DNA of 41,675 nucleotides. It comes from a virus. Under the pieces are notes generated by a model, which saw nothing but the letters and a program-made list of their open reading frames with translations, was not told the DNA's origin and did not search any database. Shown here piece by piece: positions 2,850-34,227 of the stretch. A program made the position numbers and the translations under genes. The DNA is taken from positions 1 through 41,675 of the IMG/VR virus record IMGVR_UViG_3300020478_000018; one strand, 5' to 3'. Position 1 is the first letter of the stretch; every line of letters starts with the position of its first letter.

Positions 2850-3905
2850 ATGGCTATATTAATAACCCCTAGAGTTACTCATGCTACAGCTATAACTGCA
2901 GGTAGCTTTGAGATAACTGGTAACGGTGGACTTTTAGTTAATCCTGCCAACGCTTCAGATAGTAAGGTTCATTATCAGATTCAGAACTCTGACAAGTTTG
3001 TTATGGGTGTTGATGAAACTAATGATAACTTTGTCATTTCGCGTGGAGGAGCATTAGGTACTAATAACGCCTTAAGTATTGATGGTAGTAACGGAACTGT
3101 TTCAATTGGCTCTATGAGTTTTAGTGGAATGACTTGGGATGGAAACGGAATTCCAGTTTCTGGTGGTGGAACAGGTTTAACTACAGTTAATACTGATTCA
3201 ATTTTAACTGGTAATGGAGCTTCTGCCCTAAGTGCTGAAACAACATTTACTTATAGTTCTGGTGAATTAAAAATTCTAACTCCTACAAATGATGCTAATC
3301 CTTTTATTCGTGTCGGAGCGGTTGATGCAGAGTCAGCACAAATACAAGCTGTATTTGACTCAGGTGGTCAAACATTAGATAAATTAGTTATAAGTACAGC
3401 AACTGCAGATGCAGGTGCAGATGAGGGAAGAGTTGAATTTGATATAGATGGAGTAATAGTTCTTGTTGTAGCTGATACAGGTTTAAGATTAAACAGAGCT
3501 GATACTGCAGGAGATGTGACAACTGAGTACCAACAGGGTGCTACTACTGCTTATGTTATGGGGATTGACGACTCTGATTCTAATAAGTTTAAGATTCATT
3601 CGGGTACAGCGTTAGTTGACGATAGTGATATTGAGGTTGACACAAGTGGGAATGTTACAATTAAAAATGGCACATTAACACTTAATACTGCTTTAACTTA
3701 TGCAAATGGTGGTACAGGGCAGAGTACATATGCACAAGGTGATTTAATTCATGCTTCAGCTTCTAACACATTAGCTAAGTTAACTATAGGAACCCCAAAC
3801 CAACAATTAAGAGTAGGGGCAGGAGGCATTCTTGAATACTTTACTCCAGCAACATCAAGTGGAGTCTCAGTCGGTCAAGCAATGGCTTTTGCAATAGTGT
3901 TTTAA
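2850..3905 (+). CDS. Tail fibre-like protein with GGTG repeats
   Basis: This 351-residue, beta-rich protein starts immediately after the previous stop, with GGGGG-type purine sequence just upstream. It carries the repeated segments GGGTGLTTVN (about residues 105-114) and GGTGQSTYAQGDLIHAS (about residues 286-302), plus DGSNGTVSIG and TSGNVTIKNG segments. Repeats of the type 'ANGGTGQSTY-GDLLYAS' are widespread in phage tail fibre and structural fibre proteins, where they form triple-beta shafts. It is low in cysteine and has no membrane segment. Its likely role is a trimeric fibre shaft in host attachment. The fold family is confident; the exact position on the virion is not. Confidence 0.7.
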   Translation: MAILITPRVTHATAITAGSFEITGNGGLLVNPANASDSKVHYQIQNSDKFVMGVDETNDNFVISRGGALGTNNALSIDGSNGTVSIGSMSFSGMTWDGNGIPVSGGGTGLTTVNTDSILTGNGASALSAETTFTYSSGELKILTPTNDANPFIRVGAVDAESAQIQAVFDSGGQTLDKLVISTATADAGADEGRVEFDIDGVIVLVVADTGLRLNRADTAGDVTTEYQQGATTAYVMGIDDSDSNKFKIHSGTALVDDSDIEVDTSGNVTIKNGTLTLNTALTYANGGTGQSTYAQGDLIHASASNTLAKLTIGTPNQQLRVGAGGILEYFTPATSSGVSVGQAMAFAIVF

Positions 3906-3915
3906 GGAGAATTAA

Positions 3916-4302
3916 ATGTCTAATCCACCCAATATAGTAAATGTAGCCCAAATATTTGGTGTAACTGAAACTACAAATTTAACAGGTACATCTCCGACTG
4001 CCCCTACGCCGATTATGCCTAACCCAGCAAGTCATTACACTCATAAAGTGAATATGATTATTGTTTCAAATATTGATGGAACAAATAACTGTGACATTGA
4101 TATTTATATTGATGAAAATACTACCGAGACTTATCTTGCTAAGACAGTAACAATTCCTGCTGACTCATCTCTTAGTTTAATAGATACTCCTTTATATATA
4201 AGTCATGGAGCAACAGGAACAGGCAATAGATTAATGGCAGTTGCTCAAACTGCAGATGACCTAGATGTTGTTGTTAGTTATGAACAGATTACGGATGTAT
4301 AA
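3916..4302 (+). CDS. Small beta-rich structural protein
   Basis: This 128-residue protein has a good ribosome binding site (AAGGAGA, 7 bases before the ATG). It is strongly beta-type, rich in Thr and Asn, with alternating hydrophobic strands such as NMIIVSNIDG and DIDIYIDENT, and a C-terminal VVVSYEQITDV strand. Its plan (strand-rich, one compact domain, no cysteine pairs) resembles the two small proteins after the capsid gene (34465 and 34775), which suggests a decoration or fibre-associated domain. It lies between a fibre gene and three receptor-binding-like paralogues. No specific family was recognised. Confidence 0.5.
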   Translation: MSNPPNIVNVAQIFGVTETTNLTGTSPTAPTPIMPNPASHYTHKVNMIIVSNIDGTNNCDIDIYIDENTTETYLAKTVTIPADSSLSLIDTPLYISHGATGTGNRLMAVAQTADDLDVVVSYEQITDV

Positions 4303-4304
4303 AT

Positions 4305-5063
4305 ATGCCAAGAATACCTGATAAGGCTTCTAATTCCGCATCTTCCATGTGGAAGATGAATGATGTTTATGTTGGACGAAATGGAGATGAATGGCCTGCT
4401 CCTTATGTTCCTAAAATGAAATGTGCTTTTTCACGTTCTACGTCAGGATCGTTAGCAGGTATATATACAGGTGAGTCTAACGGTGATGGTACGAATATCG
4501 GAAGTGGAAGCCCTATGACTTCACCTTGGGGGTATAACTGGAATAGTGTTGATGGGATGAACTTTTGGATTAGTACAACTGGTTCGGAAACTAATTATTA
4601 TTTGAAATGGATTATGTTAGGTACAGCCACATCAACTTATGCTCCATATAATGCCCAAATAACCGTTAGGATTTGTGGTGAATCTTCAAATACAATGGCT
4701 GATTACGCAAGAGTATATGAATATACTAATGACCCATTTACTGTTTCTGGAGGTAGTAATACATATGTACGATATGACATTCAACCTACTGGGAATCAAA
4801 TTGGGAATAACGTTTTAACATTTGGTACTGGATACACAATTGGGATAAAAACTTATCTCAACACGTATTGGACAGGTCATTATTTTGGCGGTACGAATTA
4901 TACCCAAACTCAGGCTCATACTTTATCAAGTGGTTCAACTTGGGACATCTACTGGAACTCTAGCAGTATGAGTTCTAGGATTGCAGGATGGACAGGGAAC
5001 ACAAATAACGGAACAAGTTATACACAAGGGAATCTATTCATGCTTGGTATTGAGGAGGTTTAA
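4305..5063 (+). CDS. Receptor-binding-like tail protein, paralogue 1
   Basis: At 252 residues this is the first of three tandem related genes. The N-terminal 35 residues hold the shared signature WKMNDVYVGRNGDEWPAP, a W-x-M/L-N-D-V-Y ... G-D-x-W-P pattern that I associate with adhesion-type tail proteins of marine phages. The rest is beta-rich with many Tyr, Trp, Asn, Gly and Ser, typical of a carbohydrate-binding jelly roll. Its C-terminal region (TYLNTYWTGHYFGGTNY and SGSTWDIYWNSSS) diverges from the other two copies. Its stop overlaps the next start, with GAGGAGG just upstream for the following gene. Receptor binding is inferred. Confidence 0.5.
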   Translation: MPRIPDKASNSASSMWKMNDVYVGRNGDEWPAPYVPKMKCAFSRSTSGSLAGIYTGESNGDGTNIGSGSPMTSPWGYNWNSVDGMNFWISTTGSETNYYLKWIMLGTATSTYAPYNAQITVRICGESSNTMADYARVYEYTNDPFTVSGGSNTYVRYDIQPTGNQIGNNVLTFGTGYTIGIKTYLNTYWTGHYFGGTNYTQTQAHTLSSGSTWDIYWNSSSMSSRIAGWTGNTNNGTSYTQGNLFMLGIEEV

Positions 5064-5824
5064 TGCCTAGACAACCTAACAATACAATAGCAGTTGGGAT
5101 GTGGAATGTAACTCGTCCCAATCAGCAAAGAAACGCTCATTATGGTGAAAGGTGGCCTATGATGCCACCTAATTATGCAACAGGTTACGTTTCACGAACA
5201 AGTTATTTAACTAGCGGAGATGCTAACCCTGCTTCCACAGGAATTGGTACTTGGGGTGGGCATTATGTTAATGCCTATTATTATCAGGCTATAAGTATGA
5301 GATGTACTAGCCATGATTGGGAATTGCTTGGATGGGGAGGGGCAAATTCAAGTAGCACACAGGGATTGGTTTACTATGATTTCAAAGTGTGGGAAGGTCA
5401 GTATGTGAATGACCCTAGCAAAGAAATTTCTACTTATGCCTCTGCTCAAGCAATGTGGATACCAAACAATGGAAGTCCTTCAGGACAGTCAATGATGTGG
5501 GCGAATGGGTGGTTTAATTCATTAGGAAAACTGACACAGAACACTTGGTATACATTAGGGATGGCTTACACCCAAACCTCTACTCAGTCTTATCATGGTT
5601 TCCCTACCTTTTATCTGAATGGGTCAGGTTATGGAAATTATTTATCATCTACTTCCATGACATCTTCTGCCAGTAATGCGGCAGGAACAACAACTATAAC
5701 TTCAGATTGGGAATGGGCAAGCACTCTGGGGCTTAATACGTCTTCGGGATGGTTTCTTGCAGATATGGGTACGACAAGTTTATATAATGGACAATTTATG
5801 ACTTGTCAGGTGAGGGTCTTTTAA
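5063..5824 (+). CDS. Receptor-binding-like tail protein, paralogue 2
   Basis: At 253 residues this is the middle copy of the tandem set. Its N-terminus carries a degenerate version of the signature (MWNVTRPNQQRNAHYGERWP followed by MMPPNYATGY). It shares several blocks with paralogue 3 (5824): C-T-S/T-H-D-W-x-L near residue 82, YYDFKVWEGQYVN, QNTWYTLGMAYTQ and AAGTTTI. The conserved blocks are separated by variable loops, as expected for a host-range determinant under diversification. A GAGGAGG site five bases upstream gives strong initiation despite the overlap with the previous gene. Confidence 0.5.
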   Translation: MPRQPNNTIAVGMWNVTRPNQQRNAHYGERWPMMPPNYATGYVSRTSYLTSGDANPASTGIGTWGGHYVNAYYYQAISMRCTSHDWELLGWGGANSSSTQGLVYYDFKVWEGQYVNDPSKEISTYASAQAMWIPNNGSPSGQSMMWANGWFNSLGKLTQNTWYTLGMAYTQTSTQSYHGFPTFYLNGSGYGNYLSSTSMTSSASNAAGTTTITSDWEWASTLGLNTSSGWFLADMGTTSLYNGQFMTCQVRVF

Positions 5825-6675
5825 TGCCTAGCTATAGAATCCCAAATCAATCAGCCTATCCACTTCCTCAGAATGCGAGTTGGTGGAAAGGTAACGCTAA
5901 TGGCAAATGGAAAATGAATGACATGCACAGGGCAAGGGCAGGAGATGAATGGCCTCCTACAACTATTCCCCCACCTAATTATGCTGATGGATATTTTCAT
6001 AGATATATAAATCAAGGTCACCATTATTCCCCCAATTGGTTAACCTATAACGATACTTGGGTGAATCAGACTAACTTAAGAAATCAGCACTCAATAGTTA
6101 GCGGATGGTTCAATGCGGTTAGATTTAGATGTACGACCCATGATTGGACATTGCAAGGGATTCAGCATGGCAATAAAACCAGTAGTGGGTCTCAGACTTT
6201 ATATTACAGAATTGGAGTTTGGGAAGGAAATGATGTAAACATTCTTACTGGATCAGGATTAATGGAAGATACAGGAAGTGTCTCCCATGTAATGAATGGA
6301 CAGGGTTGGCCTTATAATAGTTCGGACTTTCTTCTAACTGGTGCTGGTGGTGCTACAGATGGCACAGCAGTTCTTACTCAAAATACTTGGTATACGGTAG
6401 CCATTTTGTACGAACAAAGTTGGAGCGGTACATATTGTGCTTATTCTTATAGCGGAGATACTGGAGGTTATTATTATCCTGGAACGCAACAGTATGGAAC
6501 AGGGACTTTAACTGCTACTAACGCAGGAGGAACCACTACTCTTTATCCATACTTTGAAATGGACGCTTACGGCACTTATGGACAAGGAAATGGTTGGCCT
6601 ACTTTAAGCGGTAATTGGCAGTCAAGTGGTACGTCAGGGCCAATTTCTTCAATCAAGATTAAAGTCTGGCAATAA
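5824..6675 (+). CDS. Receptor-binding-like tail protein, paralogue 3
   Basis: The protein has 283 residues from the ATG at 5824, which overlaps the preceding TAA (TAATG) and follows GAGGGT. An upstream in-frame ATG at 5803 would lie inside the previous gene. The signature WKMNDMHRARAGDEWP is close to paralogue 1, while the body matches paralogue 2: CTTHDWTLQG, YYRIGVWEGNDVN, QNTWYTVAILYEQ and TNAGGTTTL. It is therefore mosaic with respect to its neighbours, as expected of tandem duplication followed by recombination. It is aromatic and Gly-rich and has no signal peptide. The likely role is receptor recognition at the tail tip. Confidence 0.5.
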   Translation: MPSYRIPNQSAYPLPQNASWWKGNANGKWKMNDMHRARAGDEWPPTTIPPPNYADGYFHRYINQGHHYSPNWLTYNDTWVNQTNLRNQHSIVSGWFNAVRFRCTTHDWTLQGIQHGNKTSSGSQTLYYRIGVWEGNDVNILTGSGLMEDTGSVSHVMNGQGWPYNSSDFLLTGAGGATDGTAVLTQNTWYTVAILYEQSWSGTYCAYSYSGDTGGYYYPGTQQYGTGTLTATNAGGTTTLYPYFEMDAYGTYGQGNGWPTLSGNWQSSGTSGPISSIKIKVWQ

Positions 6676-14372: not shown

Positions 14373-15977
14373 TTATATTCCTTCTATTGCACTTAAAATA
14401 CCATTCGGTATTAAATTTTGTGTCCTACACCGTTGTAAAAATTGAGAAGCACCCGAATCGAGAATGATTGTAGGACAAACATCAGTCTCACTCCGAACAC
14501 CTCTTCCTGCCATTTGGATTAAAGTGGCTAAAGTCTCATGGTCATAATACCTCCTGCTTTCTTCTAGTCTTTTTCTCATTACCTTTGAACCTAAATATGG
14601 ATATGGAATCTTTGCAACAATTACTAACTCACATTCTTTATCAGGCAAGTCAACTGCCTTGTCAAAAGAAGGAGAAACTAAAACTGCAGGGGATTCAGCC
14701 CTTTTAAATTGCTCTAGCACTCTTACTCTATTTTTACTGTTATGTGTAAAAACAAAGTCCTTATGTTTAGTTCTTCTTTCAAAGTATTGAGCAATCTTAT
14801 AGTTAACTGTGTGGATTAAAATCTTCTTGTCTAAATTCTGATTAATAATCCTATCAATCTCATCTACTATTACAGGTAGATTAATATCTATACTTTTAGC
14901 ATTCATCATAGCTGTGGGTCGTAGAATAATTCTTCTATTCTCAGGTGGAAACGTATAAGGCAATCTATAGAACTTAAATTCCCTAGGTGCTATCCCAACC
15001 TTTCTAGCTAACTCCTGTCCTGATGGAATTGTTCCACTCATAATAATGTGTCGTGGAGCGTGATCAAATAAAACTTCTTTAGATTTACTTGTCACCCATA
15101 CAGGCTTAAACTCAACTGCATTTCTATCACGTTCTACAACCCAATCTGATTTCATGGTTTTAATAATCTCAAAAGAATCTTTAACTGATTTTGCTCTCTT
15201 AGCTAAAGATATTTCATCCTTTGTCATATCTTTTGGAGATGCGTCATGAGTTTTACTATATAAATCTTCTATCGCATATCCTCTATCTTCACACCATCTT
15301 TGCCACTGAGGTACAGTTTCATAGTCAGGTAAAGGTAAGTTGTAAAGTCTACTCATTTGTCTATCGTAAAGATTGACACGAATAAACTGTTCTAACATGT
15401 CATCTAATATGTGTCCTTCATCACTTACGATTAAATCAAAATCTCCAAACCCTTTTGGGTTAAAGTTCAACATTGTTAAACCATAAGCGTAATTTGTAAC
15501 TACAATTCTTTTCTCTCGAATGTTGTCTATCTGTTGGAAGTAAGCACATTCATGCCTGATGGGGCATTTAAATTTTTCCTTTCCATCTGTAATAACAGAA
15601 CACTTAGCTTCATCAACATGCATTTCAAAGCAAGCACTATTAGAACATTCTGCATCAGCGTAAGGGTCATCTAAATGACAATGAAAATTATTTCTTCCTT
15701 TTACTGAAACAAAATCTTTATAAAGAGGAGTTACGTTCTCCTCATATTGTTGTTGCTCTAATTTAGTTGCACAAAGAACAAGCACTCTTAAATCAGGATT
15801 GAGTGCTGAAAGCATTAATACTAATCCAGTTTTACCTGTTCCTGTGGGGGCTTCAACAACCTTAACTTTTTCTTCATCTCTCTTATATAACCATTTATCA
15901 CTCTCTATCCATTCAAGTGCATTAATTTGTCCACTTCTTAAAGAGTCATAAGGTAATCCATAATCTTTAGGATTCAT
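14373..15977 (-). CDS. XPD/DinG-like superfamily 2 DNA helicase with Fe-S cysteines
   Basis: This 534-residue helicase has Walker A APTGTGKT (43-50), a DEAH-type box DEGH (186-189) and motif VI QMAGRGVR (488-495). Between motifs Ia and II lies a cysteine-rich insert with Cys at 100, 111, 116, 126, 138 and 144, where XPD, DinG and relatives carry a 4Fe-4S cluster. Such helicases unwind 5'-3' and process R-loops and recombination intermediates. At about 530 residues it is shorter than DinG (about 700) and lacks an N-terminal exonuclease domain. ATG at 15977 overlaps the upstream gene by 11 bases. Confidence 0.85.
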   Translation of the reverse strand: MNPKDYGLPYDSLRSGQINALEWIESDKWLYKRDEEKVKVVEAPTGTGKTGLVLMLSALNPDLRVLVLCATKLEQQQYEENVTPLYKDFVSVKGRNNFHCHLDDPYADAECSNSACFEMHVDEAKCSVITDGKEKFKCPIRHECAYFQQIDNIREKRIVVTNYAYGLTMLNFNPKGFGDFDLIVSDEGHILDDMLEQFIRVNLYDRQMSRLYNLPLPDYETVPQWQRWCEDRGYAIEDLYSKTHDASPKDMTKDEISLAKRAKSVKDSFEIIKTMKSDWVVERDRNAVEFKPVWVTSKSKEVLFDHAPRHIIMSGTIPSGQELARKVGIAPREFKFYRLPYTFPPENRRIILRPTAMMNAKSIDINLPVIVDEIDRIINQNLDKKILIHTVNYKIAQYFERRTKHKDFVFTHNSKNRVRVLEQFKRAESPAVLVSPSFDKAVDLPDKECELVIVAKIPYPYLGSKVMRKRLEESRRYYDHETLATLIQMAGRGVRSETDVCPTIILDSGASQFLQRCRTQNLIPNGILSAIEGI

Positions 15978-16992: not shown

Positions 16993-17442
16993 TTAATAAG
17001 CCATCTCAGGAATGTTTAATGAAAACCAATGCTTTCGGTTAAGTTCATCACGAACTACCGCTGTGTGTTTTCCATCTTCTGTATTGATGTGTGTAATCTT
17101 GTGAGATTTAAAATCTTCAAATCTAGCATTACAATCACTGCAATTATCTACAACAGATAATTCAATAATCTCTTTCCCTTCAACTTCCATTCTTAATTCT
17201 CCTGTTGTTGGGGGAAGTCCATTTTGTTTCCGAATTCTAGATACTTGTCTAGTAAGATTTAATTCATTAATCCAACGACTCATAGTTGAAGGTGATATCC
17301 CTAAAGCATCACTTGCTTGTTTCTGTTCGCCCCTAGATTGAATTAGGGCATCAAGGATTAGAGTATCTATCTCTTTTCCAAACTTATATTCCATCATATA
17401 CATGGTGGAAGTTTTTCTAATTATTTTTTGCAAAATATTCAA
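16993..17442 (-). CDS. Fis-like HTH protein with zinc-type Cys pair
   Basis: This 149-residue protein contains a Fis/HTH_8-type helix-turn-helix (residues about 29-62, LDALIQSRGEQKQASDALGI with SPSTMSRWI) followed by a CSDC pair and a beta-rich C-terminal half (KHWFSLNIPEMAY). The start is uncertain: TTG at 17442 or 17433 (the latter nine bases behind AAGGAG), or ATG at 17403 without a ribosome binding site. It overlaps the end of the RuvB-like gene, so the two are likely translated together. A regulatory role in recombination or in switching the operon is plausible. Confidence 0.55.
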   Translation of the reverse strand: MNILQKIIRKTSTMYMMEYKFGKEIDTLILDALIQSRGEQKQASDALGISPSTMSRWINELNLTRQVSRIRKQNGLPPTTGELRMEVEGKEIIELSVVDNCSDCNARFEDFKSHKITHINTEDGKHTAVVRDELNRKHWFSLNIPEMAY

Positions 17443-18337
17443 CTCCTTTTGTTGTGGCTACTCTTCCCCTAGGTGTTCTTTCTATTAAATCCATTTCTAT
17501 TAAATGAGGTTCATAGATTGATTCAATAGCTTTTTCATCTATATTAGTTTGAAGTGAAAGTGCTTTTAGTCCTACTGGATTAAGATCAAATTTATAAATT
17601 AAAGTATCTAGAATTTCAAAGTCGTTAGATGTTAATCCATTTTCATCTATATCTAGATTTCTTAATGTTGTTCTAACAATAGGTTCGTTAATTAGAATTG
17701 TATGAGAAACAGTTGCAGTGTCTCTGCATCTTTCTAGTAAACGATTAGCTGTACGAGGATTTCTTCTTGAGGAAAGGGAAAGGTGGTCGAGAGCTGTATC
17801 TGAAATATCTAATTGCATCTTATGGGCATTTATATAAATGATCTTTTTGATCTCTTCATATGAATATCTTGTAAGTTGCACAATAAATCCAAATCTTTCT
17901 CTAAAAGGTGGAGCGAGTAAACCTAGATCAGTTGTTGCTCCAATAAGTGTGAATGGGCGTAGATTAATTCTTCCACCCCATCCCATAGGATTGTCGATTG
18001 TGTAATCAGTCATAGCTGTATATAAAGTTTCTTGAAGTTTCTTAGGAAGTGCATGAATTTCATCTATAAACATAAATTCATGTTCATGGATTTCTAATAA
18101 GGCATCATAAATGATATTGTGAGATTCAATTACAGGTGCAAGAAAGTGATGACACGAACTGTCAAATTCATTAGCAATTATATTTGCTAAAGTTGTTTTT
18201 CCTAAACCACTTGCTCCATGTAAAAGAATATGGGGAAAAGGTTCATTACGCATTTTAGATGCGTTTAATGAAACCTTAATTGATTTCTTAATTTTGTCTT
18301 GTCCAATATATTCGGTTAAATTGTCAGGTTGTAACAT
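17417..18337 (-). CDS. ruvB: RuvB-like Holliday junction helicase
   Basis: The protein has 306 residues from the ATG at 18337; a TTG six codons upstream is the alternative. RuvB features are in order: GQDKIKK near the N-terminus, Walker A GASGLGKT (41-48, Ala replacing the usual Pro), Walker B MFIDEIH (89-95), sensor 1 GATT (133-136), the arginine-finger segment PPFRERFG (143-150) and the sensor 2 segment RRNPRTANRLL. The C-terminal winged helix (NPVGLKAL and ERTPRGRVATT) is also present. Host RuvB has about 340 residues. RuvB drives Holliday junction branch migration. No RuvA or RuvC partner is visible; the XPF-like nuclease could resolve junctions instead. Confidence 0.9.
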   Translation of the reverse strand: MLQPDNLTEYIGQDKIKKSIKVSLNASKMRNEPFPHILLHGASGLGKTTLANIIANEFDSSCHHFLAPVIESHNIIYDALLEIHEHEFMFIDEIHALPKKLQETLYTAMTDYTIDNPMGWGGRINLRPFTLIGATTDLGLLAPPFRERFGFIVQLTRYSYEEIKKIIYINAHKMQLDISDTALDHLSLSSRRNPRTANRLLERCRDTATVSHTILINEPIVRTTLRNLDIDENGLTSNDFEILDTLIYKFDLNPVGLKALSLQTNIDEKAIESIYEPHLIEMDLIERTPRGRVATTKGVEYFAKNN

Positions 18338-18614
18338 AATTTTTTTCCATCTCAATGGGTGGACTATTATTGTCTCATATAGGGTTTCAGAATAAAACCC
18401 TTTTTGGACTGAATTTTCTAATAATTTTTTTTCATGAATTATAATTCACTGGTGGGGAACGAGATTAAGAACAGTTGGGAGACTACCCCCAAGAAATAGT
18501 GAGCCACACTAAATCTTCTTTTGCACAATTTACATGCAGAGTCCTTTTCGGAGTCTTCCTTATCTCTTTTTAGTTAAGACTCAATGCTACCCCACGCTTG
18601 AATTTAGTTAAGAA
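18338..18614. promoter_or_regulatory. 277-bp gene-free leader region before ruvB
   Basis: No supported gene lies here. The region holds a direct repeat TTTAGTTAAGA at 18569-18579 and 18603-18613. On the minus strand a GTGGGG segment just downstream of the first repeat can pair with CCCCAC about 140 bases later, and a TTGGG/CCCAA stem lies inside that span. The A-rich run before the ruvB start gives only a weak ribosome binding site. The arrangement suggests an operator plus a structured leader or small RNA on the ruvB transcript, but no tRNA or known riboswitch fits. Confidence 0.35.
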
Positions 18615-26078: not shown

Positions 26079-27380
26079 ATGGATATGTTAAGAATGAGAG
26101 TTTCGACCGTATTGGCGATTGCTTTGACGGTCTCTTTAATGCTCGTGGGAATTGTGGGGTTGGTTGTAAGTTACTTAAACCCTATAAGTGAATGGATACT
26201 TCCTTACCTTGCCCCATGTTTTGATTATGTTGGATGTTGGATTGAGCCTTCCTTTATTTACATGAGTGGCATAGTTGAAACATTAAATGCCAATTGGCTT
26301 ATAACGTTGCCCACTTCTCTTGCAGTTCTCTTTATGGGATTACTGCAACCCGAATCTCGTAGGAATATAAGAGCCTTTCCCAGTAAAGTTCTTTCAGCAT
26401 ATCGCAAAGTATGTTCATGGCGTGATTGGCTCTTTGCCAAGATTGAATACCTAAACGGTGAATCAGTTAAATGGAAGAGGACTTTCAACATACTCAAGTC
26501 TCCCTACACATTATTACGTGCATTCGGGCTAAGTCCACAAATGGCCATATCTCTCTTGGCGGTCGGCTCTACCGCAGGAACTGGAGTCATAGTCAACGAA
26601 ACCGTCTTAGCCGAGCGTTCCTTCTCTAACGGAGATTCAGGTGTTTACCTTGCTCCCCTAGATACTCCTTCTTATTTTGACGATAAGGACAATACGTTAA
26701 GGATTAACCTAGGTGCTGTGCCAGTAAGAGAGATTACTATTGAGAATGTATCAGCAGGTACGGTTTACTCAGGAGATGCCGCAGGGCAAAAGGTTTCAGC
26801 ATTACCATCAACTTGTGGGGCTAACGGAAGTACAGCTTGTACTGAAGCAGTATTAATATCAGGTAACCCAACTGTTACAGGAGATAATGCTTTTACAGGA
26901 ACAAGGTTACAAATAGGTACGTTTATAATTGAGAAGTCTAGATGCAAGAGCATGGACTTCAGCGATATAGACGCACATACAATAGTTATAGAGCATAATG
27001 CCAGCGATGGACAAAGTATTACCCAAACTTCTGGTAACGCGAGAAACAGAGCTATAGGAGGAGGACACCATCAAGCAGAAGCTATGGTGACTAGTGGAGG
27101 TACTTATGACCGTATCTGGATTGACGCTCCTAATAGCGGGGTAAATGGAAAGATAGGTAAATTAACCCTAAGTAACTTGTGGACGAAGGGTGGAAGCTGT
27201 ACTTTCAAGAACATGGACATAGGTGTGTTAAAAATCCTACAGAATGAAGTTGGACATGACGGCAACTTGGTTACAAAGGAATTTGAGGTGGGATCAACCG
27301 TTACTGGGGCTAACTGGACTGTAACCGATAATGTTGAGTTAGTCTTCTCTGAACCTGATCTAGATAAGGGTAACGAGTAA
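26079..27380 (+). CDS. Membrane-anchored protein with beta-rich exposed domain
   Basis: This 433-residue protein is the first gene of the rightward arm. The N-terminal 90 residues contain hydrophobic helices at about 9-32 (VSTVLAIALTVSLMLVGIVG) and 73-90 and a less certain one near 38-50. After a basic stretch there is another helix at about 152-172 (MAISLLAVGSTAGTGVIV). From residue 175 on it is beta-rich and low-complexity (HTIVIEHNASDGQSI, TYDRIWIDAPNSGVNGKIGK), resembling a right-handed beta-helix. GGAGAGAAGGA precedes the ATG. Its place before packaging genes is unusual. It could be an envelope protein or a minor virion component; I recall similar proteins only from uncultured marine phages. 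Confidence 0.55.
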   Translation: MDMLRMRVSTVLAIALTVSLMLVGIVGLVVSYLNPISEWILPYLAPCFDYVGCWIEPSFIYMSGIVETLNANWLITLPTSLAVLFMGLLQPESRRNIRAFPSKVLSAYRKVCSWRDWLFAKIEYLNGESVKWKRTFNILKSPYTLLRAFGLSPQMAISLLAVGSTAGTGVIVNETVLAERSFSNGDSGVYLAPLDTPSYFDDKDNTLRINLGAVPVREITIENVSAGTVYSGDAAGQKVSALPSTCGANGSTACTEAVLISGNPTVTGDNAFTGTRLQIGTFIIEKSRCKSMDFSDIDAHTIVIEHNASDGQSITQTSGNARNRAIGGGHHQAEAMVTSGGTYDRIWIDAPNSGVNGKIGKLTLSNLWTKGGSCTFKNMDIGVLKILQNEVGHDGNLVTKEFEVGSTVTGANWTVTDNVELVFSEPDLDKGNE

Positions 27381-27413: not shown

Positions 27414-28067
27414 ATGGTCGAGAAAACAATATCTAGTTTAGAAGAACATTATGGTTCACCCATTTTAAATGAAGAGGGTGACTCAATATGTGGCAGGGGC
27501 AAAAAGGATGGCGGCATTTGCCGTTTTGAGGCAGGTTGGGGGACAGACCACCTAGGTTTTGGAGCTTGCAAACACCACGACTCAGAAACCAAGATGGACA
27601 TAAGCCCTCTCACAAAAGGAAGAGTCATATACTCTGGAATCGCTAAGAACTCACGACTCAAAGACCACTTACAACAGGAGGAGACCAGAACAGAACTAGA
27701 CAATCTAGATGGAGAAATAGTCCTTCTTCGTGCCATGTTAAAAATTCTCGTAGAAAAGTATGGTGAGAAAGTTGTAGATGACGAACTCTTTGATGTACTG
27801 GAGTATGGAACAGATTTTGATACAGTAGATCAGCAAACAAGAAGTCTAGTTAACCTAGTAGATAAGATCAGCTCTAGCATTAAACGCAAATACGAAGTTC
27901 TTCAAATTGCAGGAAGTACCATTACTAGAGCAAGAGTCAGAGAGTACATCAGTAGTATTCAATTATCTTTAGGTCAAGTCTTAAGAAACGAATGTCCTCA
28001 TTGCCATAAAAAACATAATCAACGAGATCAGGCTATTGAAGCTATAAAGAGAGTTGGTGACCTCTAA
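27414..28067 (+). CDS. Small terminase subunit (probable)
   Basis: This 217-residue protein is encoded ahead of the terminase ATPase gene. The N-terminal 60 residues form the zinc-knuckle-like motif seen in many phage small terminases: C26, C36 (GGICRFEAGWGT), H46 and C52 with H54/H55 (GFGACKHH), of the 'GxPCxxxAGxGTxHxGxGxCxxHxG' type. A charged helical centre follows (LDGEIVLLRAMLKILVEKYG), with a second CPHCHKKH at about 196-203. It would recognise phage DNA and stimulate the ATPase. Stop and next start overlap (TAATG). Confidence 0.7.
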   Translation: MVEKTISSLEEHYGSPILNEEGDSICGRGKKDGGICRFEAGWGTDHLGFGACKHHDSETKMDISPLTKGRVIYSGIAKNSRLKDHLQQEETRTELDNLDGEIVLLRAMLKILVEKYGEKVVDDELFDVLEYGTDFDTVDQQTRSLVNLVDKISSSIKRKYEVLQIAGSTITRARVREYISSIQLSLGQVLRNECPHCHKKHNQRDQAIEAIKRVGDL

Positions 28068-28552
28068 TGTATGAATATAAAGTAAAAATCACAAGAGTGG
28101 TGGATGGAGATACGGTAGATGCAGAACTGGATTTAGGTTTTGATATTATCTATCGAGATAGAATCAGGCTTATGGGGATCGATACTCCTGAGTCAAGAAC
28201 ATCAAACAAGCGAGAAAAGATACTTGGAAATAAATCCAAGGAAATGCTCAAGGCTCTTGTTAAAGAGAACAAGGGATATATTACGCTTGAGACTACCAAA
28301 GAGGGTAAAGGTAAGTTTGGAAGAATCCTTGGATACTTAAACACAGAGAAAGAGTTTAACTCTCCTTCATTTAACCAAATGTTGATTAACGAAGGTCACG
28401 CTAGACCATACTTTGGTGGAAGCAAAGATGAATTAGGAGAATGGACTAAAGAAGAGGGGGATTGTAATTGTAAAGGTAAAAAGGCATTTAGTCGCTGTAC
28501 TGGAACATGGTACAGGTGGACTAGAAATGGATATGTAGGATTTGATGACTAA
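28067..28552 (+). CDS. Staphylococcal nuclease-like (SNase) protein
   Basis: This 161-residue protein has the SNase fold motifs: VVDGDTV (11-17), RLMGIDTPE (34-42) and KFGRILG (83-89). The catalytic residues correspond to R34, E42 and R86, with D15/D39/T40 for calcium. A C-terminal Cys cluster (GDCNCKGKKAFSRC) is an addition outside the classic domain. There is no signal peptide, so it acts in the cytoplasm. Between the two terminase genes it could act in packaging or in DNA degradation. Start overlaps the previous stop. Confidence 0.85.
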   Translation: MYEYKVKITRVVDGDTVDAELDLGFDIIYRDRIRLMGIDTPESRTSNKREKILGNKSKEMLKALVKENKGYITLETTKEGKGKFGRILGYLNTEKEFNSPSFNQMLINEGHARPYFGGSKDELGEWTKEEGDCNCKGKKAFSRCTGTWYRWTRNGYVGFDD

Positions 28553-29343
28553 TGCCAAGATCGGTAGCTGATACAGCAAGCATCTCTATCCTGTCAGGAA
28601 TGAGAGAACGATCTATCGCAGAAGAACGAGCGTATGACCATCCTGCATACTTCCATGAGTACGTCTTTAATCAAACACTTCCTCCATTTCAATGGGAGAT
28701 CATGGAAACACTATTGGAAGGGCATACTAACCCTAGTAATAGTGACGTAAACCCTCTCCTTATACTTGCCCCTAGAAATCATGGAAAGACTGCTATAGCG
28801 GCAGAAAGTTTTCCTCTTTGGAAAGTCGGAAGAAATAGATTTGAAATGGTTCAAATCATATCTAGCGTTATCTCTCTTGGAATAGAACGTATGGGGAAAA
28901 TAGAATCCTGCATACGTTTTAATGAGAAATACAAACAAATGTTCGGAAACTTATATCCCGAAGAACAAAAAGAATACACATGGAAGACTGATCGAATGGA
29001 AGTCGTTAGAGATAAATCTGCGGCATGGGAAAGTGGAGATATTCAGCGTGACGCTACGTTTGCTTGTTTTGGAATAACAACTAGCGTGGAAGGGGGAAGA
29101 TCAACTCTTCAGATTTATGATGATGTTGTGAGTATGGAGAATAGTCAAAGTGAAACTTCTAGAAGAAATGTTTCTACAAAGTTTTGGATGTCGTTTGACC
29201 CAATGCTCATGCCCAAGGGACAACAGATATTCCTCGGTACGAGATTTCATTATGATGATCTCTATGCAGAACTTATACCTATATTAGATACAGAGAATTT
29301 ATATACAGACCTTTATCCGAATATGTACGAGGAGACTCCATGA
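28552..29343 (+). CDS. Large terminase, ATPase domain (split gene, part 1)
   Basis: This 263-residue protein carries the motor domain of the large terminase: Walker A APRNHGKT (73-80), Walker B LQIYDD (186-191) and the coupling motif GTRF (229-232) followed by HYDDLYAEL. The normal protein continues with an RNase H-like nuclease, but this gene stops shortly after the coupling motif; the nuclease is encoded separately from 29486, with a 48-codon gene in between. The two proteins presumably assemble into one packaging motor. Stop and next start form an ATGA overlap. Confidence 0.9.
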   Translation: MPRSVADTASISILSGMRERSIAEERAYDHPAYFHEYVFNQTLPPFQWEIMETLLEGHTNPSNSDVNPLLILAPRNHGKTAIAAESFPLWKVGRNRFEMVQIISSVISLGIERMGKIESCIRFNEKYKQMFGNLYPEEQKEYTWKTDRMEVVRDKSAAWESGDIQRDATFACFGITTSVEGGRSTLQIYDDVVSMENSQSETSRRNVSTKFWMSFDPMLMPKGQQIFLGTRFHYDDLYAELIPILDTENLYTDLYPNMYEETP

Positions 29344-29486
29344 AGAAAAAAATATTGATTGGCTCAATGTTTGGTGCTACAGCTTTAATGGCAGGAATTG
29401 CATGGAAAGTTAAAAATGTTCGTATGTGGAAGGATATAGAGAGTACCCTTCCTTTTCCTAGAGCAAAGAAACTTGGAGACAAATAA
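29340..29486 (+). CDS. 48-residue membrane peptide between terminase halves
   Basis: MKKKILIGSMFGATALMAGI opens the peptide: basic N-terminus and one hydrophobic helix of about 18 residues, then a basic, polar tail (VKNVRMWKDIESTLPFPRAK). It overlaps the ATPase gene by ATGA and the nuclease gene by TAATG, and GAGGAG lies in the previous gene just before its ATG, so it is translated within the packaging operon. It looks like an insertion at the joint of the two terminase domains. Possible roles include lysis timing or membrane anchoring; none is proven. Confidence 0.55.
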   Translation: MKKKILIGSMFGATALMAGIAWKVKNVRMWKDIESTLPFPRAKKLGDK

Positions 29487-30358
29487 TGGGAGTCAGGATA
29501 TATCAGGCGATTAAACCTGATGGTTCAGTCCTATGGGAAGAGGAACGACCTCTTGAATGGCTTGAGAAGAAAAAGCGTTCAATGCCACCATCATTATTTA
29601 ACGCTCAGTATCAAAATGATCCTTCTGGAATGAAGGGAGTTAAGTTTGATATTGATTGGTTACATTTTTATGACGATATAACCATACCTCCAATACATAG
29701 GCTTATAGGGATGCAAGGTGGTGATCCTGCAACTTCTACATCTGAAAGTGCTAATTACTTTGGGCATTGCACAGCAGGGAAAGACCCTGATACTGGAATA
29801 GTTTATGTTCTCGATTTTGCATTTGGTAAAATCCCTGCTCCTAAACATCTTGAGTTTCTTCACGCTCAATATTCAACATGGAGAGCAAGGGGGCTTAATA
29901 TATCTAAAGTTATTTTAGAAACAAATGGGCCACAGCAAGCTACAACTCAGCACTTAATTAATCAGACGCGAAATGACCCTAGGGGTTCAATGCCTATTGA
30001 GACAATAGTGCCTAAAGGATCTAAAGAGCAAAGATATGATGGAATAATTCCTTTTATTGCTAATGGCTCTATTAGATTTAAGGGTAAAAGACGAGGGGAC
30101 GATATATACATGGCAGATGAAATAGGGTTTAAAGAATTCCAACAGGAATACTCTGCTTTCCCTAGAGGGGGAAGAGATGATATTCTTGACGCACTATGGA
30201 TTGCGGTTAATCAACTGACTTCATCTGTAGATGCGGTTGCAATCAGTGATGAGCAACTTGTAGAAGAAGATAAATATATAGAGCCTTTGGATACTCCACG
30301 AGAAAGAGTGTTAAGTACAACGGCTAGACCTAGTTTATTTCATAGAGGATTAAGGTGA
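29486..30358 (+). CDS. Large terminase, nuclease domain (split gene, part 2)
   Basis: This 290-residue protein is the C-terminal half of a large terminase. It starts with a linker strand (RIYQAIKPDGSVLWEEERP) and SLFNAQYQNDP, the segment that normally joins the ATPase to the nuclease. The RNase H-like core follows, with GGDPA (D80), VILETNG (E145) and GGRDDILDALW (D231, D232, D235) supplying the metal ligands. It cuts concatemers during headful packaging. TAATG coupling to the 48-residue ORF keeps it in step with its partner. Confidence 0.9.
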   Translation: MGVRIYQAIKPDGSVLWEEERPLEWLEKKKRSMPPSLFNAQYQNDPSGMKGVKFDIDWLHFYDDITIPPIHRLIGMQGGDPATSTSESANYFGHCTAGKDPDTGIVYVLDFAFGKIPAPKHLEFLHAQYSTWRARGLNISKVILETNGPQQATTQHLINQTRNDPRGSMPIETIVPKGSKEQRYDGIIPFIANGSIRFKGKRRGDDIYMADEIGFKEFQQEYSAFPRGGRDDILDALWIAVNQLTSSVDAVAISDEQLVEEDKYIEPLDTPRERVLSTTARPSLFHRGLR

Positions 30359-30362
30359 TCAC

Positions 30363-31922
30363 ATGGGTAGATTTCAAAATGCTTGGAACGCTCTACGAAC
30401 CAAAACAGAAGAAGAAGCAATTAATTATTCTGCATCTCAATCATCCGAACCTGATGAGCATCTGTGGAAAAAGTTAGGAACAGGTACGAGTAATAATACG
30501 AATAACCTTTCTGATCTTACTCAACAGCAAACATTAGATTACGCTCAATACTTCTATAAAAGTAATCCTATAGCTAAAAGGATTATTGACCTTACAGCAG
30601 AATATGTAATCGGTGATGGGATTAAATATGTAGCTGAAGACAATGCTGTCCAAGAGATACTTGATGCCCATTGGACTGATCCTACAAACAATTGGACTAT
30701 TAACCAGTTCTCAAGAGTTAGAGACTTAGGTTTAACTGGTGAACTATGTATACCTGTTTATGTAAACGAAAGTAATGGACACGTTACTCTTGGAAACATA
30801 GATACAGGAATGATAGATGTTGTTATAGAGAATCCTCATAACAGCATGAAACAACAGATGATTATCCTAAAGAAAATTGCAGGAGAACCATATCGTAGAG
30901 CATACAAGATAATAGATGTATCTAATGCTCCTATAGGAACAAAAGAATATGGCAGATTGGTAGGACTAACCTGTGGTGAGGTTAAAGGTGGAGAGTTTGA
31001 GTTAGGAGATATAATCGAACCTAAACATGGACGAAGTAAATATAAGTGCAAAGTTGCAGGTGCATGTTTCTTCTTTACTGTTAATAACCCAATGACTGCT
31101 GATCGTGGTTGGAGCGACCTCCTCCCTGATATGGATTGGATAGATGCTCATGACCAATTTCTTTTCTCTTCAGTAGAGAAAGCAATAGAGTCATCTAAAT
31201 ATGTACTTGATGTAACTTTAACCGGTAAAAACGAACAACAGATTCGCGAGTGGTTAAGAAATCAATCTGCTCTAAAGCCTGGACAACGATTTGCTCATAA
31301 CGAGAACGTCTTTCAAGAATTTAAAACTCCTGACTTACGATTAGAAGATAGTGCGAGTTTAGCTTCAGTATTAAAGAATCATGTTCTAGCAGGGGCAGGT
31401 CTTCCTCCTATATGGTTCTCAGAGTCGTTAACCTCTAGAGCATCTGCTCCCGAAATGACTGAACCTGCATACAGACATCTTAAGATGAGACAAAAATATA
31501 TCTCTTACATAATGAGTAGAATTTTCAGGTATGTATTAGATACAGCAATTATTTATGGCAGACTAAGACAGGATGGTCGATATAGCGATAGGAGTCTTGC
31601 AAGTATTGAATCTGCAAGTTTCTATCTACGTATGCCCGAAGTTTCATTTAGAGACCAAAGAGCAAATGCAATTGCTATACGCTCTATATCTACTGCACTT
31701 AAAGATGCAACAGCTAATGGGTTTATTGATACAGAAGAAGCCGAAAGAATATTTAAGAGATACTTAGGACTTACTGGAATTGATGCAGGAAAAGATGAAC
31801 CTGCACAGAAACGTGGAGTATATGATGTGGATATGACTCTTTCAGAGTTATTTCAGACCACTACGGAGTCTACACATTTTAATGGCTTTACATACTACAC
31901 TTTCCCCGATAGAGTTAAATAA
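30363..31922 (+). CDS. Portal protein
   Basis: This 519-residue protein starts four bases after the terminase nuclease gene. Its features fit the SPP1/HK97-like portal fold: an N-terminal arm, the clip and stem regions with YKSNPIAKRIIDLTAEYVIG, a central LRLEDSASLASVLKNHVLAG, then LPPIWFSE and a long C-terminal helix set. The portal forms the 12-subunit ring at the head vertex through which the terminase packages DNA. Its position after the terminase and before the protease/capsid gene supports this. Confidence 0.85.
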   Translation: MGRFQNAWNALRTKTEEEAINYSASQSSEPDEHLWKKLGTGTSNNTNNLSDLTQQQTLDYAQYFYKSNPIAKRIIDLTAEYVIGDGIKYVAEDNAVQEILDAHWTDPTNNWTINQFSRVRDLGLTGELCIPVYVNESNGHVTLGNIDTGMIDVVIENPHNSMKQQMIILKKIAGEPYRRAYKIIDVSNAPIGTKEYGRLVGLTCGEVKGGEFELGDIIEPKHGRSKYKCKVAGACFFFTVNNPMTADRGWSDLLPDMDWIDAHDQFLFSSVEKAIESSKYVLDVTLTGKNEQQIREWLRNQSALKPGQRFAHNENVFQEFKTPDLRLEDSASLASVLKNHVLAGAGLPPIWFSESLTSRASAPEMTEPAYRHLKMRQKYISYIMSRIFRYVLDTAIIYGRLRQDGRYSDRSLASIESASFYLRMPEVSFRDQRANAIAIRSISTALKDATANGFIDTEEAERIFKRYLGLTGIDAGKDEPAQKRGVYDVDMTLSELFQTTTESTHFNGFTYYTFPDRVK

Positions 31923-31989: not shown

Positions 31990-34227
31990 ATGCCTAAAGC
32001 AGTTGAAGATTGTGTAGAAGAGATATTGGCTGATCCTGATTTTCAACCCGAATTAAAAGAGGGTGAAGATAGAAAGTCAGCCGCTTATGCTATTTGCACA
32101 GCAAGAATGAAGGAATCGGATACCGAAAAAGAAGAAGAAATGTTAGAAAGCACACAGACCATTAAACGTCTTCTACAATTTGAAGCTCAATCATTAGACG
32201 ATACAGGAAGTGATTGGCGTATTCGTATCATCAATGCAGGAACATCAAAGAACAATAGAGAGTATCCTCTAGATGTCCTTCATAGAGATGCCTTAATTTT
32301 TGAAGGAGTTCCAGTTCATGCAGGTAATGGTAGAGATCATTCTCCTGAAGAACGTGGAGTTAAAAGTATTGTTGGGTTCATTAAGAATGTGGATAGAGTC
32401 CCCGAAGGACTTGATGCCACATTTCATGTTTCAGACCCAACTCTAAAAGACACACTTCTAGATTTACATAAGGAAGGAGTGTTAAGCAATGTCGTTGGAT
32501 TCAGCATTGTTGCTGAAGGACGATGGCAAACTAATGTAGTAAATAGATCAGAGCGAGCAATACAGCTAGTAAGAGCCGACTCTGTAGATTTGGTTAGAGA
32601 ACCTGCCGCAGGGGGTAAATTCCTTGCAGTTGCAGAGTCAGAAGAAGTTATCCATAAAGAAGAAGTTATTAATACAATTCCTTTTAAGGAGGGAAAAACA
32701 ATGGAAATAACTGAAGAAAAGTTACAGGAACTTCTTGTCGAAGCCTCCGAAAAGGGTGTTCAGTCTTATAAAGAGAGCGTCCAAGATGAAGAGGTAGAGG
32801 AAGTAGAAGAAGTAGAGAATCAGGAAGAGGTTAGTAAAGTCGAAGAGGCTCTTACTCAACTGAGTTCCACTCTGTTGGATTCAGCTATCATGGGTGCAAG
32901 CCTACCTGATATTGCCGAGCAAAGAATTCGCACTCAATTTGAGGGCAAGCCTTTTGATGCTACTGCCGTTCAGAAGGCAATTGCAGATGAGAAGGACTAT
33001 CTTGCTACCTTAACTAAGGTTGCAGTAGAGAATGTTACTAGCAGTAAAACAGAGATTGTTGCTGATGAAGGCGACAAGAAACTTGCTAGACTAGACGCAT
33101 CTTTCACACCTTCTAGAGTTATTACAACTAAAGATGGTCAGAGAGTTAAAGGATATCGAACCTTTACAGAAGCATATTGCGACTGGACAGGAAAGAATCC
33201 TCTAGAAGTCGGACGAGAAGAAGTTTGGGAAGCATGGATGAATGGCTCAAAAGGCTACGCATCTTGGCGTGAAGAGTCTGTTAACAAACTATATACGGAA
33301 GCATTGGCTACATCTGATTGGGCTGAAGTTGCCGCAGATAGAATGCACAAGGCTATGATAAGCAACTATGGTGATCTTCCTCAGTATCAAGATTGGAAGA
33401 AGGTTGCCAAAGTTATTAGCGTTAATGATTACCAAGCATACCGAGACATCAAAGTTGGTGGATTCGCAGACTTAGCAGTTGTTGCGGAAGCAGGAACTTA
33501 TGCTAACCTGACCAATCCTACCGATGAAGAGACTTCAGTCACCATGCAGAAGCGTGGTGGTATTGCGTACCAAATAACACGCGAATTGGTACTGAATGAC
33601 AATATCGGAGCTGTAGCAGAGATTCCTAGAGAACTCGCTCGATCTGCCGCTAGAACTCTTTACAAGCAAGTCTTTGACATAATGGGTTCAAACAACCACA
33701 CATACACTCCTGACTCAAAAGCTGTGTTCCATGCAGACCATGCAAATACAGGAACAACGGCTCTATCTATTGCAGGAATGAATGCTGCCACTATAGCTAT
33801 GAGAAGTCAGACTAGATACGGTGCTAGTGCTGATGTACTTGGAGCCGCAAATGCTCCTGCTACATTGGTTGTACCTAACGAACTGACTAGCTTGGCACAA
33901 AGGATTGCAAATCCTAGCACACACATGATTACTCAGTTAACTGCTGATGCCGATGCTGACATCGATACTGCTCAATTCGGAGGAGTAGATGTTGTAACGG
34001 TTGACTACTGGACAGATGCAGATAACTACTTCTGTGTAGCAAGTCCTGATCAAGCCGCAGGAATTGTGGTTGCGTTCTTAAATGGACAAGAAGAGCCTGA
34101 TCTGTTTATACAGAATGACGAGACTCAAGGTGATACTTTCACCAATGACGTACAAAGTATTAAAGTAAGGCACGAGTTCAACACAACTGTTGCTGACTAC
34201 CGCCCACTTTACAGGCAAGAGGGATAA
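31990..34227 (+). CDS. Prohead protease-major capsid fusion protein
   Basis: This 745-residue protein has an N-terminal segment (DCVEEILADPDFQPELKEGE, KSAAYAICTARM) typical of capsid-protease fusions. A maturation-protease-like domain follows at about 60-215 (VGFIKNVDRVPEG, VLSNVVGFSIVAEG, SVDLVREPAAGGKFLA). A glutamate-rich coiled linker (about 240-290) precedes the capsid domain (about 350-745, GGIAYQITRELVLNDNIGAV, AVFHADHANTGTTAL). A strong ribosome binding site inside the gene (32685-32693) would let the capsid part be made alone as a 508-residue protein from 32701. It has its own promoter and is followed by a strong terminator. Confidence 0.85.
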   Translation: MPKAVEDCVEEILADPDFQPELKEGEDRKSAAYAICTARMKESDTEKEEEMLESTQTIKRLLQFEAQSLDDTGSDWRIRIINAGTSKNNREYPLDVLHRDALIFEGVPVHAGNGRDHSPEERGVKSIVGFIKNVDRVPEGLDATFHVSDPTLKDTLLDLHKEGVLSNVVGFSIVAEGRWQTNVVNRSERAIQLVRADSVDLVREPAAGGKFLAVAESEEVIHKEEVINTIPFKEGKTMEITEEKLQELLVEASEKGVQSYKESVQDEEVEEVEEVENQEEVSKVEEALTQLSSTLLDSAIMGASLPDIAEQRIRTQFEGKPFDATAVQKAIADEKDYLATLTKVAVENVTSSKTEIVADEGDKKLARLDASFTPSRVITTKDGQRVKGYRTFTEAYCDWTGKNPLEVGREEVWEAWMNGSKGYASWREESVNKLYTEALATSDWAEVAADRMHKAMISNYGDLPQYQDWKKVAKVISVNDYQAYRDIKVGGFADLAVVAEAGTYANLTNPTDEETSVTMQKRGGIAYQITRELVLNDNIGAVAEIPRELARSAARTLYKQVFDIMGSNNHTYTPDSKAVFHADHANTGTTALSIAGMNAATIAMRSQTRYGASADVLGAANAPATLVVPNELTSLAQRIANPSTHMITQLTADADADIDTAQFGGVDVVTVDYWTDADNYFCVASPDQAAGIVVAFLNGQEEPDLFIQNDETQGDTFTNDVQSIKVRHEFNTTVADYRPLYRQEG
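32685..32703 (+). promoter_or_regulatory. Internal ribosome binding site within the capsid gene
   Basis: TAAGGAGGG (32685-32693) is followed after seven bases by an in-frame ATG (32701), inside the protease-capsid gene, exactly between the protease part and the scaffold-like acidic segment. This is the best Shine-Dalgarno match in the area and would initiate a 508-residue capsid protein that starts MEITEEKLQELL. It would provide the excess of capsid over protease, as in lambda C/Nu3 and other nested gene pairs. Confidence 0.75.

Follow-up and report, generated by a model that had tools for sequence, protein, structure and literature searches.

The large terminase is normally a single protein, and its gene is a hallmark for defining and detecting tailed phages. 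Two-gene terminases are nevertheless already known, given that in most Arthrobacter phages of cluster AY the terminase ATPase and nuclease are encoded by two consecutive genes (PMC11920828). In the Bastillevirinae, TerL is split by introns, which are spliced out (PMC11878797). Apart from the cluster AY precedent, our search of the literature on split terminases returned mostly nothing relevant. The PHROGs collection holds separate terminase families of ATPase length (phrog_4758) and of nuclease length (phrog_5573), and these may reflect further two-gene cases.

Here we describe a split large terminase in the IMG/VR virus record IMGVR_UViG_3300020478_000018, analyzed over positions 1 to 41,675 (the window). 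Its sole large terminase is encoded by an ATPase gene (part 1) and a separate gene for the lid plus nuclease (part 2). As in cluster AY (BillyTP, PP978841), separate and consecutive ATPase and nuclease genes lie between the small terminase and the portal. The lineages differ, however, with BillyTP matching phrog_19179, phrog_21277 and phrog_9 and the split group described here matching phrog_38. The BillyTP break follows the lid, with about 15 residues between it and the first nuclease Asp; that of the split group precedes the lid and lies about 80 residues ahead of the equivalent Asp. The BillyTP terminase genes overlap by 17 nt and have neither spacer nor cargo; the junction of the split group carries exchangeable cargo. 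The split-group terminase is of independent origin from that of cluster AY, and its break point and cargo site set it apart from BillyTP.

Results

Organization of the terminase locus

Rereading the ORFs upheld the coordinates, frames, and ATGA and TAATG overlaps given by an initial annotation of this DNA (Table 1). Part 1, the micro ORF and part 2 occupy three different frames; part 1 and the micro ORF share ATGA (29340-29343), and the micro ORF and part 2 share TAATG (29484-29488). The same annotation had a 144-base spacer exactly filled by the micro ORF. The ORF does have 144 coding bases plus a stop, but the spacer, from the part 1 stop to the part 2 ATG, measures 142 bases.

Table 1. Features of the split terminase locus, with positions in the window
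Feature	Position	Strand	Basis
Probable small terminase	27414..28067	+	position (synteny) and motif GxCR..AGWGTDHxGxGxCKxH
SNase-family endonuclease, immediately 5′ of part 1	28067..28552	+	Pfam SNase E 1e-12, phrog_452 E 7e-36
TerL part 1, ASCE ATPase, 263 aa	28552..29343	+	PHROG_38, AF2, dN/dS
GAGGAG Shine-Dalgarno-like site (putative) for the micro ORF, within the last codons of part 1	29326..29334	+	sequence reading
Micro ORF, 48 aa, single-helix membrane, in junction	29340..29486	+	hydrophobic stretch, dN/dS
TerL part 2, lid/linker segment and complete RNase H-like nuclease, 290 aa	29486..30358	+	PHROG_38, AF2
Portal protein	30363..31922	+	phrog_10963 E 5.2e-33

The stop of the SNase-family gene overlaps the ATG of part 1. 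The putative small terminase gave no significant Pfam or PHROG match, and its gene is kept in 14 of 15 records, the 15th (L008) beginning inside part 1. Both terminase halves lie upstream of the portal and protease/capsid (31990) genes, as is usual for a large terminase. A six-frame profile search of the window found no second terminase. Rather than one polypeptide, TerL corresponds to two ORFs in different frames, both in the window and in all 14 of its relatives.

Elsewhere in the window, the 745-aa product of positions 31990-34227 looks like a head protease fused to a capsid protein; its nearest named relative is in Microcystis phage Mae-JY22 (31%). A RuvB-like Holliday junction helicase (17417-18355) and a helicase of the DEAD/Helicase_C_2 family (14373-15977) are also encoded. 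Upstream of the terminase operon, a gene conserved in most relatives (26079-27380) encodes a product of 433 aa that has multiple hydrophobic segments and matched no family.

Domain identity and position of the break

Comparison with terminase families bore out a complete ATPase and a complete nuclease, divided at the linker. Part 1 matched positions 257-463 of the PHROG_38 (large terminase) profile (E 1.3e-33) and part 2 positions 482-713 (E 1.6e-40), so that the halves are collinear and do not overlap; neither half was matched in a Pfam search. Part 1 has a Walker A motif (LAPRNHGKT), a Walker B motif (LQIYDD) and a coupling motif (GTRFH), all conserved in relatives, and closes with a C-terminal extension of 15-20 aa, LYTDLYPNMYEETP, which in most split proteins ends LYTDLYPxxxE. 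In part 2, the acidic residues are D80, E145 and D231/D232/D235; D80, E145, D232 and D235 are invariant or nearly so in the alignment, and the nuclease acidic triad is present.

The AF2 model of part 1 (pLDDT 84.6, pTM 0.81) matched the PhiV-1 terminase (Z 22.9) and the ATPase domain of T4 gp17 (Z 17.0), aligning with the latter as far as gp17 residue 306. At the sequence level part 2 matched no solved structure, and fold comparison was therefore used; its AF2 model (pLDDT 82.4, pTM 0.76) matched the PhiV-1 terminase (Z 16.5), the HSV pUL15 nuclease (16.3) and the G20c nuclease (16.2). The D6E nuclease (Z about 16) also aligned with the N-terminal lid portion of the part 2 model (residues 1-247). 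On these models, and with a lid boundary in T4 gp17 set partly from background on that protein, the break is placed before the lid: the ATPase core is predicted to end ahead of it, and the lid to be carried on the nuclease chain.

Fused PHROG_38 terminases (L020, L021, L029, and PhiV-1, the nearest solved fold) have the same motifs, folds and order but, unlike the split group, are single polypeptides. The distance from GTR to NAQYQ is 56-78 residues (mode 56) in fused relatives and 72-77 in split proteins when both pieces are summed, and thus no linker residues are missing. The LYTDLYPxxxE tail of part 1 looks similar to the hinge strand at the start of part 2 (VRIYQAI), which would suit a strand duplication at fission, although the identity is too low for proof.

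A conserved split in related phages

Protein-guided scans of IMG/VR yielded 14 related contigs carrying 12 different metagenome identifiers; the evidence base is thus uncultured contigs, many of them partial. By our reading of those identifiers, the group consists of uncultured, probably marine phages. The window is 53-92% identical to these relatives in part 1 and 48-89% in part 2, and the split lies at the same point in all 14. A whole-record PHROG_38 search of the 14 records found only the two halves and no other terminase. Outside the split group identity does not exceed 37%, and nearly all of about 85 distant IMG/VR relatives have a single open frame. No cultured relative above 30% was found among 50,697 phage records, and the best relatives in a scan of genome contigs were only 24-31% identical, so that no host was identified.

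Both terminase halves are under strong purifying selection, with dN/dS of 0.04-0.09 for part 1 and 0.05-0.17 for part 2. The window is a single metagenomic contig, which might by itself suggest a sequencing or assembly error or a decaying pseudogene. However, the same break recurs in 14 other contigs with differing junction contents, dN/dS is far below 1 for both halves, and every record lacks an alternative terminase; we give this explanation a vanishingly small chance. The artefact reading of the split was refuted by the relatives.

The split sequences are monophyletic, set apart by a single branch (support 100/100), in a tree built from 12 split terminases and 18 fused ones, and a single fission event in the ancestor of the group fits this tree. 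The stem of the split clade is long, at 3.1 substitutions per site, and consequently the point at which it joins the fused relatives is weakly resolved and its exact sister unsettled. Within the clade, L007 groups with L006 (98/96) and L008 (94/91).

Other arrangements were seen among more distant sequences. In one relative of about 30% identity (L066:2687-3511 and 3388-4473; also L068), ATPase and nuclease ORFs overlap in differing frames, which may point to a frameshift or to a separate splitting event. The ATPase and nuclease of a MAG-borne terminase (L121:4722-5579 and 5533-6270) also lie in different frames, which may reflect a sequencing frameshift or a recoded gene. Two MAG contigs (L116:3465-4244 and L118:4863-5507) have ATPase-only terminase ORFs with no nuclease half by profile; in L118 this ORF is followed by a phosphoglycerate kinase-like ORF.

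Variable contents of the junction

What is stable is the split; the junction varies in content, and this cargo site ranges from 8 to about 920 nt across records. In the window and L001 it holds only a single-helix ORF of 48-49 aa. In L002, L003 and L004, a micro ORF of the window kind is accompanied by a 110-aa ORF with one hydrophobic helix and an otherwise coiled-coil-like sequence. L005, L015, L016 and L017 have a 43-aa single-helix ORF. L006 and L008 have one of 39-41 aa, together with a PAPS-reductase-like ORF of 258-265 aa (E 6e-37 and 8e-40 to phrog_424). The junctions of L045-L047 contain an unrelated ORF of 117-123 aa with a CxxCPLPxC motif and no family match. Finally, the junction of L007 is empty: its ATPase and nuclease genes, separated by one ORF in the window, are directly adjacent, joined at TAATG and in different frames. 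L007, apparently free of cargo yet split, shows that a spacer is not required; most simply read, it lost its cargo while the halves remained separate. Across the group, small unrelated genes have repeatedly entered, left or replaced one another at the junction, and the halves have never rejoined.

A membrane plus coiled-coil gene occurs at three places around the terminase genes (L002:4938-5270, L007:3579-3989 and L005:120-707). In L007 it immediately precedes part 1, and in L005, L015 and L017 it sits farther upstream; these differing positions indicate that genes move among the gaps of the terminase operon. Its L002 copy, the 110-aa gene of the junction, gave a weak match to an Rz-like spanin (E 0.04).

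The micro ORF of the window has a hydrophobic stretch at residues 5-21. It matched no Pfam or PHROG family, lysis families (holin, spanin) included, and a search for it outside terminase junctions returned only already known loci. Short single-helix ORFs are present in 11 of the 15 junctions, and the kinds share a pattern of a Met-Lys-rich start, helix, Lys, an aromatic/acidic stretch and a final Pro. From this pattern, common descent is likely though not proven; identity between kinds is 24-33%, so that one gain plus one loss is not firmly separable from several gains. Within subfamilies, dN/dS was 0.13-0.27 (window/L001/L002) and 0.06-0.18 (L005/L015/L016), with Fisher p of 1e-3 to 1e-6, in keeping with translation of this ORF, originally described as 48 codons with one helix.

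That description also had the membrane micro gene splitting the terminase, and here the relatives disagree: L007 has no micro ORF and L045-L047 have the unrelated ORF of 117-123 aa instead, and all are still split; in L002-L004, L006 and L008 a further gene has joined the micro ORF. L007 and L045-L047 also bear on whether the peptide functions within the terminase, perhaps tethering the motor to the membrane or helping it assemble, with the split existing to express it. The recurrence of similar ORFs in most junctions and the purifying selection on them would suit such a role, but the ORF is missing from these four still-split records and diverges far faster than the terminase halves. We regard this role as improbable; the micro ORF is probably cargo rather than part of the terminase. 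Its helix and neighbouring genes make a function in lysis or in the membrane plausible.

Expression of the two halves

Translation signals at the junction vary. GGAGGA is found at the equivalent site 5′ of the micro ORF in L001, L002, L004 and L008, and in the window GGAG lies a few bases 5′ of the part 2 start. Several relatives have no clear ribosome site there but keep the stop/start overlap, an arrangement consistent with termination-reinitiation.

If ribosomes instead frameshifted or bypassed the junction, some full-length fused terminase would be made; the halves are indeed adjacent and in order, and conservation extends to the termini of part 1 and to the start of part 2. Most records, however, would need bypass of unrelated sequence or several shifts. 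Neither the window nor L007 has a slippery heptamer, and the frame ahead of the part 2 ATG is open for only 1-8 codons (5 in L007). The conserved start of part 2 takes the form ATG-Gly/Ala-Val-Arg, which also argues against recoding. We consider recoding quite improbable.

Terminase genes are known intron targets (PMC11878797), and in the Bastillevirinae, as in the split group, the terminase reading frame is interrupted by an intervening sequence; a mobile intron, intein or homing-endonuclease invasion that is spliced out therefore has to be weighed. Unlike in those phages, no intron was found in the split group, and both ORFs have their own starts and stops. A scan of nine sources at Rfam gathering thresholds found no intron or ribozyme, and no endonuclease was recognised in any junction. 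The 142-nt gap of the window is shorter than typical group I introns, which counts against this explanation, as do stop and start codons placed exactly at the gap. L007, with no intervening RNA, is still out of frame. The absence of an intron or homing endonuclease here, as first annotated, thus stands; we see only a very slight chance of such an element. The premise that splits of this kind come from introns or homing endonucleases was too strong, given the consecutive genes of cluster AY (PMC11920828). Taken together, the conserved start and stop codons at the junction, the lack of recognisable intron RNA and of slippery sites, and the 1-8 open codons argue against both splicing and recoding.

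Discussion

We think it very probable that these phages have an obligate two-gene large terminase, translationally coupled and assembling in trans, with a junction that serves as a gene-cargo site. Fission would have occurred once, in the ancestor of the group, within a variable loop that joined the ATPase core to the lid, leaving the ATPase core on one polypeptide and the lid and RNase H nuclease on another. We infer that both halves are made from one operon through stop/start coupling at ATGA and TAATG; the two subunits would then most likely come together in trans at the portal vertex to form the terminase. The break point would then have become a tolerated insertion site for genes. On this view a single-helix membrane micro gene has entered it, followed in different phages by a coiled-coil membrane gene, a PAPS-reductase-like gene or the unrelated 117-123 aa gene, and one lineage has shed all of its cargo.

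What makes the locus interesting is less a membrane gene splitting the terminase than a two-gene terminase that carries cargo. A stable two-gene terminase breaks the single-protein assumptions made in annotation, and it serves as a natural test of the need for a covalent link between ATPase and nuclease. Because the lid goes with the nuclease chain, a break at this place could allow a test of lid-motion models that couple ATP hydrolysis to the nuclease domain. More tentatively, and with the odds somewhat against it, one can envision a motor whose translocating ATPase core is physically separate from the lid and nuclease, so that in the course of packaging the lid and cutter might associate, dissociate or change in stoichiometry, and a junction that is a recurrent site of cargo acquisition. 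If this is true, a cargo-acquisition site would sit within the most conserved gene of tailed phages.
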